Part shown: one piece after another, positions 24,931 through 32,379 of the stretch
Numbering within the stretch: position 1 is the first letter of the stretch
Layout of the letters: each line of letters begins with the position of its first letter
From: Candidatus Nanopelagicaceae bacterium
GTDB lineage: Bacteria > Actinomycetota > Actinomycetes > Nanopelagicales > Nanopelagicaceae
Direction: 5' to 3'
NCBI GenBank assembly: GCA_947454735.1
Contig: CANGLK010000004.1
Location: 1-64,000, forward strand
Length of the DNA stretch: 64,000 nt
Translations under genes and position numbers: made by a program
Notes under the pieces: generated by a model
Database searches by the model: none
Told to the model about the DNA's origin: nothing
Seen by the model: only the letters and a program-made list of their open reading frames with translations

Positions 24931-25015
24931 TGCTTCCGCTAATTTAGGTGCACCCCTATTTCTCTGCCAATTAAATTGTCACCGCCAACATATATCTTCC
25001 GGTAAAGGAGAAAAT

Positions 25016-25855
25016 ATGACGATTTCTATTGGTATAAAAGTTAACGATGGTCTGGTGATTGCTTCAGATAGCGCCCTCACTCTTGCTGGGGGTACAAGTG
25101 TTAGCAATGTCTATATGAATGGGACCAAAATTATGAACCTTCATAAAGATTTACCTATAGGTGTTGCATTCTGGGGTTTGGCATCGCTTGGAGGACATAA
25201 CTTTGCATTTTGGTTAAAAGAGTTACGACTACGTTTAGAAGGAAAATCCCTTTCTCACCAGTCCTGGGAAGTAGACAATTCGAATTATTCAATTCTTGAA
25301 ATCGCGAAAAAGGTGAGTGAGTACTTTCAAGAGGTAATTAACAGTCAGCGAAATCTGTATCCGGATCTCGTGTTACAAGACTTTGGTTTGCTTATAGCTG
25401 GATTTTCTACCGGCTCCCTTGTGCCAGAAACGTATGTAGTGCCACATAACTTAAATACCATCCATAATCCATACGATCCAATAAGTGGAGGCACTGGATG
25501 TTTTTGGCATGGTCATCCAGAGTTAATCAACAGAATTTTGAATGGCTACTCAGCAAACCTCGCTCAAGCTCTCATTAATTTGAAGGTGGACCCAGCAGAT
25601 GTCGCTGCCTACACTCATGCAATCGCAGCTCAGACTCAGGTACCGCTGATTCAACCTGATATGCCTATTCAGGATGCGATTGATTTGGCAACATTTCTAG
25701 CTGATGCGACAGTCAATTTTACGAAGTTTGCGCCAGGGGCCAACGTTGTAGATGGGCCAATAGATATAGCAACCATAACTCGCCATGAAGGCTTTAAATG
25801 GGTACGCAGGAAGCTTTACTACCCTCTAGAATTGAATCGTGGACATCATGAATAA
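25016..25855 (+). CDS. Proteasome/HslV-like Ntn-hydrolase family protein
   Basis: MTISIGIKVNDGLVIASDSALT...NGTKIMNLHKDLPIGVAFWGLASLG: Thr2, Asp at mature position 17, downstream Lys. Confidence 0.6.
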   Translation: MTISIGIKVNDGLVIASDSALTLAGGTSVSNVYMNGTKIMNLHKDLPIGVAFWGLASLGGHNFAFWLKELRLRLEGKSLSHQSWEVDNSNYSILEIAKKVSEYFQEVINSQRNLYPDLVLQDFGLLIAGFSTGSLVPETYVVPHNLNTIHNPYDPISGGTGCFWHGHPELINRILNGYSANLAQALINLKVDPADVAAYTHAIAAQTQVPLIQPDMPIQDAIDLATFLADATVNFTKFAPGANVVDGPIDIATITRHEGFKWVRRKLYYPLELNRGHHE

Positions 25856-25994
25856 CACAGAACTCCTAGTCGTATTGACTGGCCCAACAGGTCCTGCTGT
25901 CTCCCAGACTCAGAATGAAATTTTGATTTCAGCGAGCGCTGCCGAAGTAGAAATTCCCGCTGATTTAAAACCTCTTAAGCTGGTTATTTCTTAG
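25848..25994 (+). CDS. Small 48-aa protein overlapping the Ntn-hydrolase stop (absent from ORF track)
   Basis: MNNTELLVVLTGPTGPAVSQTQNEILISASAAEVEIPADLKPLKLVIS, 8-nt overlap ATGAATAA. Confidence 0.4.
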   Translation: MNNTELLVVLTGPTGPAVSQTQNEILISASAAEVEIPADLKPLKLVIS

Positions 25995-29358: not shown

Positions 29359-31530
29359 CTACTTAGTTTTTCCTGGCTTCTTAGCCTTTGAAACTTTTGA
29401 TGTCGCTTTTGTTGCAGTGCTCTTTGCGCTCTTCGTTGCAGACTTTGTTGCACGGCCTACTGCGTGCGATGCGGCGATGATTGGACGTAAAACATTTCGC
29501 GACTGAGGGTTCTGTGCATTGCGCTTTAACTGTGGAAGCTCGGCAACGCGAGCGATGATTGCTTCGTGAATCTCCTGCACAGATAGCGTGCCATCGACAA
29601 CGAGATAACGCTCTGGATCAAGAAGAGAAAGCTGCAAGAATTCTTGGCGCACACGCTCGTGGAATTCAACTGGCTCTGCCTCAAGGCGATCAAGTGACTT
29701 CAAACGTCCCAAACCAATTACTGCGGGAAGATCAATCAAGATTGTCAGCGTTGGGTACAAGGTCTCTGTCGCCCAACGATTGATTCGCGCAACCTCACTT
29801 GGAATGAGTACGCGACCTGCACCTTGATATGCAATGGATGAATCCATGTAGCGATCATTAATAACAACTTCGCCCTTAGCAAGTGCTGGACGGATAACAG
29901 TCTCAACGTGGTGTGCGCGATCTGCGGCATACAACAACGCTTCAGCGCGAGGATTAATTGCACCGGTCTCATGGCCTAGCAAAATCTTTCGAAGGCCTTT
30001 ACCGAGATCTGTTCCACCTGGTTCGAATGAGAGAACAACTTCTTCTCCCTCTTGGCGTAACCACTCTGCAAGTAACTTTGATTGTGTTGACTTACCGGTT
30101 CCTTCTCCACCTTCAAAGGAGATAAAGATTCCATCAGTTGATTGTCCGGTAATTGCACCGAGCTCACCTTGCATCGCAGCAAGTACATCTGACCAGAGTG
30201 AAACCTGCGGGCGATCTTTCATCTGACGATATGAGAGAACTCCGATGAAGAGGCCGATTGCACCAGCGATAAGAATTGTGATTTGTGCGCCGTTGTAATC
30301 AAGGCGAATGTTGTAGAACTCGTAATGAATCTTGCCGATTGTCGCTGCAGCGATTGGAGCAATCGCGAGAACTGCCACCAAAGTAATACGGATCAATGAT
30401 TGTACGAAGGCGAAGGTACGGCCGCGGACCTCGTTATTGACCTCCATGCCGAGCATGGTGAAGCCGGTAACCCAGCAAATACCGCTAAAAGCACCGAGAA
30501 TCACAACGATAACAATTGAGATTACAAGGTTTGCAATCAGTGCGAGCAAGATCAAGAAGAAGCCGGCAACTGCAAGTGATGCGCCAAATAAACGGCGGCG
30601 GCTAAATTGTGCAAAGACCTTTGGGCCAAAGGCGATACCGAGTGCAAGACCTGTAAAGACTGATGCGAAGAGAACACCATATGCAGCATCTCCACCGCCG
30701 AGATCTCCTACAAATGTTCGCGCCAATCCAATAACGGCACCGGCTGCAGAGAATGCACCGACCATTCCGATGATCAATCCGCGAATAATCTTGGAAGAGG
30801 CAACTGCCTTCCATCCCTGAATCAGTGACTTACCAATATTTTCATCCGCACCATTTGCAGATGCTGGTCCCTTAGGAATTTCATGGAGTCCGCGGATTGT
30901 CCACGCTGCAAAGAAGAAGCTCAGCGCATTGATGTAGAGAGCGATATCAACTGAGCGCGAAGGAAGAAGTGGACTGATTGCAGCGAGCGCTCCTGCAAAT
31001 AAGGAGAGGAGTGAGAAGAGAACTGCGGCAATTGGCGCTGTTCCATATGCTGCCAAGAGAGAGACTTGGTTTGCATTCTCAAGGCGTTCTTTAGGAACAA
31101 GATTGGGAACAGATGCTTCCTTCGCCGGTGACCAGAAGAGCGTCAGGCACTCAACAAGAATCATCGCCGCGTATAACCAGAAATATGTATGGACAATTGG
31201 AATCGAGATATAGAGCGCACCGCGTAAGAGATCGACGATGACCATCAATCTACGACGATCAAATCGATCTGCGATGACTCCAGCGAGTGGTCCTAAGAAA
31301 ACCGCCGGCAAGAGGCGTGCGATAAAGACACCTGCGATTGCAAAGTTAGCAGTTGCGTATGAGCCACCTGAAAGTTGCGCAGCAAGTGCAGTCGTTGCAA
31401 GAAGACCGAGCCAATCACCCAAAGAGGAGAAGACCATCGAGTTCCATAGCTTTCGAAAAGCTGGAATAGCTAAGACTCCGCGGGTTACCTCTTGAGCGGG
31501 TGCTTCAGGGGTAGGCAGGCCTTTAGACAT
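29359..31530 (-). CDS. tmk: MFS transporter-thymidylate kinase fusion with Lys-rich tail
   Basis: N-terminal MFS helices; C-terminal ISFEGGEGTGKSTQSKLLAEWL and NDRYMDSSIAYQGAGR. Confidence 0.9.
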   Translation of the reverse strand: MSKGLPTPEAPAQEVTRGVLAIPAFRKLWNSMVFSSLGDWLGLLATTALAAQLSGGSYATANFAIAGVFIARLLPAVFLGPLAGVIADRFDRRRLMVIVDLLRGALYISIPIVHTYFWLYAAMILVECLTLFWSPAKEASVPNLVPKERLENANQVSLLAAYGTAPIAAVLFSLLSLFAGALAAISPLLPSRSVDIALYINALSFFFAAWTIRGLHEIPKGPASANGADENIGKSLIQGWKAVASSKIIRGLIIGMVGAFSAAGAVIGLARTFVGDLGGGDAAYGVLFASVFTGLALGIAFGPKVFAQFSRRRLFGASLAVAGFFLILLALIANLVISIVIVVILGAFSGICWVTGFTMLGMEVNNEVRGRTFAFVQSLIRITLVAVLAIAPIAAATIGKIHYEFYNIRLDYNGAQITILIAGAIGLFIGVLSYRQMKDRPQVSLWSDVLAAMQGELGAITGQSTDGIFISFEGGEGTGKSTQSKLLAEWLRQEGEEVVLSFEPGGTDLGKGLRKILLGHETGAINPRAEALLYAADRAHHVETVIRPALAKGEVVINDRYMDSSIAYQGAGRVLIPSEVARINRWATETLYPTLTILIDLPAVIGLGRLKSLDRLEAEPVEFHERVRQEFLQLSLLDPERYLVVDGTLSVQEIHEAIIARVAELPQLKRNAQNPQSRNVLRPIIAASHAVGRATKSATKSAKSTATKATSKVSKAKKPGKTK

Positions 31531-31608: not shown

Positions 31609-31633
31609 GTAGCACATTTTGTGATTGTGCTAC
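31609..31633. promoter_or_regulatory. Putative TA operator: GTAGCACA-N9-TGTGCTAC
   Basis: Perfect 8-bp inverted repeat ending 9 nt before the antitoxin ATG. Confidence 0.65.
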
Positions 31634-31642
31634 TTTTACTCT

Positions 31643-31996
31643 ATGACTACCAAGCCAAAGGCGAGCAAGGCTAAGAAGGTTGCCGCAAAGAAGACAGAAT
31701 CAAATGTTGAAGCCGAACTTCACAAGGTCGTTGGGGTGCGTGAACTACGTCAACAAGCATCGCGTGTGCTTGATTTAGTAAAGAGAGGTGAGGTGATCGT
31801 TGTGACAGAACATGGAACTCCGATTGCAGAGATTGTTCCAATTAAGAAGACCAAGTTAGAACGTCTCATTGAGCAAGGGGCGGTTACACCGGCTCAGAGA
31901 CCTTTTAATGTAGATCGCTGGAGCAATACAGACGGACCCAGGTATCCCGAAGCACTTGAACTCTTTCTGAAAGAGCGTCGCGAGGCTCGCTATTGA
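31643..31996 (+). CDS. Type II antitoxin, Phd/YefM family
   Basis: VVGVRELRQQASRVLDLVKRGEVIVVTEHGTPIAEIVP. Confidence 0.85.
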   Translation: MTTKPKASKAKKVAAKKTESNVEAELHKVVGVRELRQQASRVLDLVKRGEVIVVTEHGTPIAEIVPIKKTKLERLIEQGAVTPAQRPFNVDRWSNTDGPRYPEALELFLKERREARY

Positions 31997-32379
31997 TTAA
32001 GTACTTCGATAGCTCTGTACTGCTTCAGATTATTCTTAATCTTGGTGATCGCACATTTCTAAATCAATTTTCTCAGCGGGAGAACTTCACCTCGCGCTTA
32101 AGCCAAGTTGAAGTTCTGCGTACAGTGATGAAGATAAAGCCTGAATTAATTGATGATGCAATAGATCTATTAATGGAACTTCAATTTATTGAAATTACAA
32201 ATCGTGTTATAGACAACGCATCTAGCTACCCGCAGGACATTTCTCTCAAGAGCTCTGACGCAATTCATATGGCTACCGCTGAGTCACTACTGGATGTCGA
32301 TGATGTCCTTGTTACCTTCGATAAGCAGATGGCTCTCAATGCCGAACGGTTGGGAATTAAAGTTCTTACTTCTTCTTAG
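31993..32379 (+). CDS. Type II toxin, PIN domain (VapC family)
   Basis: YFDSSVLLQIIL, LKSSDAIHMATAESL, LVTFDKQM; TTG start overlapping antitoxin stop. Confidence 0.85.
   Translation: MIKYFDSSVLLQIILNLGDRTFLNQFSQRENFTSRLSQVEVLRTVMKIKPELIDDAIDLLMELQFIEITNRVIDNASSYPQDISLKSSDAIHMATAESLLDVDDVLVTFDKQMALNAERLGIKVLTSS

Follow-up and report, generated by a model that had tools for sequence, protein, structure and literature searches.

A predicted proteasome-type hydrolase gene and a small overlapping gene form a sporadic, mobile two-gene unit that in some relatives is followed by a toxin gene

Introduction

What kind of function is served by a proteasome-like gene that stands apart from any AAA+ unfoldase gene and whose 3' end overlaps a reading frame of only 48 codons? 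This question is raised by a locus in the window, the whole stretch of 64,000 nucleotides of DNA from a freshwater bacterium that was analysed here. Its enzyme gene (P0001) and small gene (P0002) had been described in an initial annotation as a proteasome/HslV-like N-terminal-nucleophile (Ntn) hydrolase and a possible substrate, tag or regulator. Proteasome homologs of this general kind were classified by Fuchs, Alva and Lupas (2021), who defined the groups PMI-1 to PMI-6 (Proteasome homolog with Multiple Insertions), PMI-2 to -6 being marked by insertions between H3 and H4, and PMI-3 and -4 by pore-loop insertions as well; the PMI group is found in bacteria and archaea, with PMI-4 in phages (PMC8665760). 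Genomic context and co-occurrence gave these authors no hint of function for the PMI groups, and one proteasome homolog, connectase, acts as a protein ligase (PMC8665760). Here we show that the enzyme family to which P0001 belongs, which is of a known but uncharacterised kind, is accompanied by a small downstream gene under purifying selection, that the pair is a sporadic and mobile accessory unit, and that in a minority of relatives the pair is directly followed by a toxin gene.

Results

P0001 has a predicted proteasome-type fold and a conserved active site

Both reading frames and their 8-nt overlap were found exactly where the initial annotation had placed them (Table 1), and a direct count confirms that removal of Met1 would leave Thr at position 1, Asp at 17 and Lys at 37. 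P0001 does not reach the cut-off of PF00227 (Pfam; 11.8 versus 22.4 bits, E 0.19) or of TIGR03634 (NCBIfam; 14.4 versus 224 bits, E 0.021), and comparison of its profile with that of actinobacterial PrcB by hhalign gave a marginal match (P 0.013) in which the N-terminal register is kept. An AlphaFold2 model computed from an alignment of 39 relatives (pLDDT 88.1, pTM 0.86) has the four-layer alpha-beta-beta-alpha fold, and a Foldseek search with this model gave 893 matches in the PDB at E<=1e-3, with 20S beta subunits on top (yeast 1ryp_K, 1.6e-9, TM 0.70 on target) and Anbu ranked after them (5lox, 2.5e-8; 5nyw, about 2e-8). Among 100 aligned family members, Asp18 is present in all 100 and Lys38 in 99 of 99, and of the 97 members with a residue at position 2, 93 have Thr and 3 have Ser, so that the proposed catalytic Thr, Asp and Lys are nearly invariant. 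An N-terminal propeptide is absent in family members, the Thr being residue 2. On the strength of structure prediction and residue conservation, not of sequence score, P0001 is predicted to be a hydrolase with the proteasome-type N-terminal-nucleophile fold, and the proposal that it lies outside the classical 20S and HslV families is borne out.

Table 1. Positions of the features discussed; coordinates are those of the window unless a locus is named.
Feature	Position	Strand	Basis
AAAGGAG ribosome-binding site of the Ntn gene	25004..25010	+	sequence
P0001, proteasome-like Ntn-hydrolase gene, 279 aa, short type, PMI-2-like architecture	25016..25855	+	
Thr2 codon (Thr1 once Met is removed), predicted nucleophile	25019..25021	+	residue conservation
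Asp18 codon (mature Asp17)	25067..25069	+	residue conservation
Lys38 codon (mature Lys37; proteasome Lys33 equivalent)	25127..25129	+	residue conservation
PMI-type insertion: two extra helices, residues 182-188 and 193-207, between H3 and H4	25559..25636	+	predicted model compared with PMC8665760
C-terminal signature, GPxDxAxITxxEGFxWxxRKxYY region, common to phrog_5990	25754..25819	+	
P0002, small partner gene, 48 aa, ATG start, 8-nt overlap with the Ntn stop	25848..25994	+	
Ubiquitin-like operon beside long-type pair	L011 4984-8156; L012 4984-8121; L007 4983-8156		

The architecture fits the PMI group

The initial annotation had suggested a diverged Anbu- or BPH-like class, which is close but wrong. 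In the P0001 model, H3 and H4 are separated by two additional helices, and neither the pore loop nor S3/S4 carries an insertion; P0001 thus fits the PMI group best, as a PMI-2-like protein placed by predicted architecture against the published group definitions. Membership of the BPH proteins, which are compact, HslV-like and lack an H3/H4 insertion (group I, PMC8665760), was rejected on account of that insertion. Connectases, in which H1 and H2 are absent and S3/S4 carries a two-helix insertion, were likewise rejected, since the model has H1 (63-74) and H2 (93-114) and no S3/S4 helices. The family falls into two size classes, a short type of about 270-310 aa and a long type of about 400-450 aa, the latter resembling PMI-3/4 as described in the published groups. 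The uncharacterised PHROG phrog_5990 represents these long cousins; it matches P0001 with an E of 7.9e-17, the best stretch covering residues 223-276 only. The short type is found in Actinobacteria, Chloroflexi, Alphaproteobacteria, Firmicutes, Bacteroidetes, Planctomycetes, Acidobacteria and archaea.

A small overlapping gene accompanies the enzyme gene

The initial annotation had made its reading depend on conservation of the 48-aa reading frame, and this expectation was upheld. A small frame (44-140 codons, ATG start, beginning -31 to +30 from the enzyme stop) lies downstream of the enzyme gene in 97 of 108 family loci, compared with 47 of 291 when the other genes of these loci served as controls (Fisher p about 2e-43); the loci counted are related, a few of them are duplicates, and the gene calls are simple. 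It also accompanies the enzyme copies of E. coli prophages and satellite phages. In four close pairs the small frame is under purifying selection, with dN/dS of about 0.04 to 0.23 (L079/L090, dN 0.088 and dS 2.36; L103/L109, 0.077 and 1.37; L011/L012, 0.135 and 1.83; L066/L072, 0.140 and 0.62), and in most close pairs compared the partner evolves faster than the enzyme. On the locus count and this selection, a chance frame was rejected at the level of the family.

For the window itself, we consider it improbable that the 48-aa frame is a chance one and that the enzyme acts alone. A comparable frame follows about 16% of control genes, so that a lone one could arise by chance, and no sequence homolog of P0002 was detected. 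Against this, about 90% of relatives have the frame, and the start offset of the window, -7, is the commonest among short-type members (17 of 57). MPxYxY[QR] recurs near residue 22-25 in many short-type partners (24/47 versus 1.6 in shuffles), as does a C-terminal LxxLxF (12/47 versus 0.4); both patterns were picked after viewing, so that the shuffle tests are descriptive. P0002 is without the central motif; its tail, ADLKPLKLVIS, fits the C-terminal one in that it weakly resembles it (shuffle P about 0.06). The family-level evidence makes a chance frame very unlikely, and the 48-aa frame is very probably a genuine gene, the translation of which would be coupled to the end of the Ntn gene. A programmed frameshift joining the two frames is disfavoured, because the offsets, between about -28 and +24, fall in every reading frame and the partner starts at an ATG of its own.

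Between clades, homology of the small partners is not demonstrable, the sequences being too diverged. No globular fold was predicted when the L045 partner was folded with P0002 in the alignment (pLDDT 68, pTM 0.19). In alphaproteobacterial enzymes, a conserved C-terminal LETDHA (seen at the Ntn gene ends of L025, L027, L030, L037, L040, L044, L045 and L049) coincides in the DNA with the partner's GGAG ribosome-binding site and overlapping start codon, and its conservation is therefore probably regulatory.

The pair is sporadic and mobile

The pair occurs in the window's own genome only among 201 genomes sampled from the same family, and the enzyme family in 6 of 395 genomes of the class; weak matches at L002 and L003 within the same family were rejected as chance, lying in unrelated genes. 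In the window the pair sits between a genus-conserved VOC-family gene and a hypervariable island for sugar biosynthesis. Where relatives share this VOC gene, the island genes at the site differ, and the Ntn gene has a lower GC content (0.42) than the window on average (0.455). The enzyme family is also plasmid-borne, and is found in 31 viral contigs, in 13 phage records, nine of them Streptococcus phages or satellites, and in 22 of 5426 E. coli genomes. Family genes are mostly last in the phage or satellite elements, and the three E. coli copies that were examined are in prophages, beside the repressor or on the strand opposite to the late genes. Such sites, at element ends, adjacent to repressors or opposite late genes, are classical for lysogenic-conversion and anti-phage genes.

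No AAA+ gene lies next to the pair in the window, as had been noted from the outset, and the family loci scanned have neither a constant AAA+ neighbour nor a conserved third partner gene. Their neighbours are diverse and include integrases, transposases, holins and some defence-like ATPases; we claim no enrichment, because PADLOC matches such as mad3, AriA and AbiLi are promiscuous. PADLOC gave no credible match for short or long members themselves, the one weak match being to BrxL (E 0.006).

Several features of the surroundings deserve record. On Rhizobium plasmids a long-type Ntn pair adjoins a multiubiquitin / ThiF E1 / DUF6527 ubiquitin-like operon (Table 1), and a functional or island link between the two is possible. 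A PF00227 proteasome gene is absent from the window's genome and from two complete genomes of the same genus and present in 51 of 60 sampled genomes of the class; this streamlined genus appears to have lost its 20S proteasome. A Phd-like antitoxin frame and a PIN/VapC-like one that follows it (31625-32379, + strand) lie at a distance of about 5.6 kb from the Ntn pair and, by eye from the translation, look like an ordinary VapBC-type module. Also by eye, a single frame at 29359-31530 (- strand) encodes a major-facilitator transporter joined with a thymidylate kinase domain (EGGEGTGKSTQ...), and a DNA polymerase III delta'-like gene adjoins it.

Toxin genes follow the pair in nine relatives

At nine short-type loci the partner slot holds a protein of 72-131 aa and the next co-directional gene encodes a type II toxin. 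This is a PIN toxin in L046 (3.5e-8), L051 (8.4e-8), L052, L055 and L165, a second locus in the L055 genome (the last three called by sequence likeness to Pfam-scored PIN copies), MazF in L013 (1e-19), a ParE-like toxin in L018 (5.7e-12) and Fic/Doc in L110 (5.3e-9) and L111 (8.4e-13). With the toxin gene directly after the longer partner, the partner slot resembles that of an antitoxin. Five of the nine loci are from one acidobacterial lineage, and a search of 297 genomes of that phylum with the acidobacterial 131-aa partner found only the partner itself. The acidobacterial genomes concerned have 23-37 PIN genes each (for example, 33 in 3.7 Mb), and PIN genes make up about 1% of all genes in some hosts, so some adjacency is to be expected. 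However, four unrelated toxin families in the same position argue against coincidence; at an assumed base rate of 1%, the probability of four independent toxin cases in 50 is about 0.002. The evidence is thus suggestive of a linkage that is not coincidental. No toxin gene lies beside the pair in the window, or in most family loci. The long-type locus L069 has, immediately downstream of its small partner, a frame resembling Phd/YefM antitoxins (886-1140, + strand), whose Pfam match (1.1e-6) falls slightly short of the cut-off.

Discussion

The initial annotation was right about the type of enzyme and about the conserved small frame, and its idea withstood all three of the refuting checks that it had set, on the fold, on Thr2 and Asp18 and on the small frame; it erred in pointing to Anbu or BPH and overlooked the mobile distribution and the toxin-linked variants. 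From these features we infer a model that gives the first gene an enzymatic activity, its partner the part of substrate or inhibitor, the pair an anti-phage or addiction role, and control a direction. According to the model, the first gene would encode a free-standing proteasome-type Ntn amidohydrolase, made without propeptide and needing no dedicated AAA+ unfoldase, which would become active once methionine aminopeptidase exposes Thr1. The second, translated by coupling from within the end of the first, would yield a short protein, for the most part unstructured, as a specific ligand of the enzyme, either its dedicated substrate or an inhibitor acting in trans. In resting cells the two would be balanced; a challenge to the carrier or host, most plausibly by another phage, would shift the balance, and proteolysis would hit its target. 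At the minority of loci with a longer, antitoxin-like partner, proteolysis would be aimed at a toxin-antitoxin complex, and cutting of the partner would free the PIN, MazF, ParE-like or Fic toxin. That the pair is a horizontally carried two-gene module of host-phage conflict, with the small protein as the dedicated substrate or inhibitor of the enzyme, has in our judgement about an even chance of being correct. More tentatively, and with some doubt, we raise the possibility of a class of protease-gated conflict systems in which sensing of a phage would lead to cleavage of an antitoxin or bait partner and release of the toxin or the protease, used by prophages and satellites against competitors.

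A less probable reading, which would fit a part of the data, leaves conflict aside: the enzyme would form a proteasome-like oligomer that serves housekeeping or phage physiology, and the small protein would help it to assemble or mature, as a propeptide supplied in trans or as a gate. Family members lack an N-terminal propeptide and have their Thr at residue 2, and the partner is short, predicted to be unstructured, and produced in step with the enzyme. However, a patchy mobile distribution and toxin-linked variants are unexpected for a housekeeping function, and in most pairs the partner outpaces the enzyme in evolution. This fast evolution, together with the overlap of the two genes and their carriage on mobile elements, satellites and plasmids among them, would equally suit an addiction module in toxin-first order with the enzyme as toxin and the small protein as antidote. 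We consider this quite unlikely: nine loci have a bona fide toxin next, and because the slot there looks like the antitoxin of the toxin that follows, the partner at these loci would have more than the enzyme to serve. Least probable, in our view, is a connectase-like peptide ligase that attaches the small protein, or the motif conserved in it, to target proteins as a tag. The ligase activity of connectase, itself a proteasome homolog (PMC8665760), and the conservation of the partner's central motif and C terminus speak for it, but the P0001 model, with its H1 and H2 and without a helical S3/S4 insertion, is unlike connectase.

Should the idea of protease gating prove true, enzymes of the proteasome type would become part of the immune repertoire of bacteria. 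Fuchs et al. (2021) left many proteasome homologs without a functional clue, and the coupled partner is a first lead on function. The partner gene, the siting in satellites and in prophages at positions of lysogenic conversion, and the four toxin families provide a testable handle on a large part of these homologs, and the E. coli prophage version makes it experimentally accessible. The coupling of enzyme and small partner appears to be new, since Fuchs et al. found no informative gene context. In the open-licence literature we found nothing on the enzyme/partner pairing, or on Ntn or proteasome-like proteins together with toxin-antitoxin or defence systems, and the coupled small gene, mobile siting and toxin-linked variants appear undescribed there.

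Comparison with known systems

The 20S proteasome beta subunits and HslV share the predicted fold and catalytic triad of P0001, which differs from them in its extra helices and absent propeptide; its sub-threshold profile scores, and the lack of an adjacent AAA+ unfoldase (HslU) or alpha subunit, led us to reject membership of these families. Anbu likewise has the fold and stands alone without an AAA+ unfoldase. However, after residue 264 the P0001 model has no helix of more than 3 residues, and so lacks the long C-terminal H5 helix of Anbu, and the gene pairing differs; membership was rejected. Proteins of phrog_5990 have the same C-terminal signature and N-terminal triad as P0001 but are about 415-430 aa long, P0001 being shorter by some 140 residues of insertions. 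Type II toxin-antitoxin modules resemble the pair in being small, overlapping genes on mobile elements, and a toxin is the third gene in nine relatives, but the pair in the window is unlike them in having no toxin gene and an Ntn hydrolase as its first gene. The PMI group shares with the family the proteasome beta-like core, Thr1/Asp17/Lys33, the absence of a propeptide and the H3/H4 insertion, whereas its published description (PMC8665760) is without the coupled small partner, the lysogenic-conversion siting and the toxin-linked variants; it is to this group, as far as predicted architecture places the family in it, that we would add a two-gene unit that recurs in bacteria, archaea, prophages and phage satellites, sometimes with a toxin gene next.
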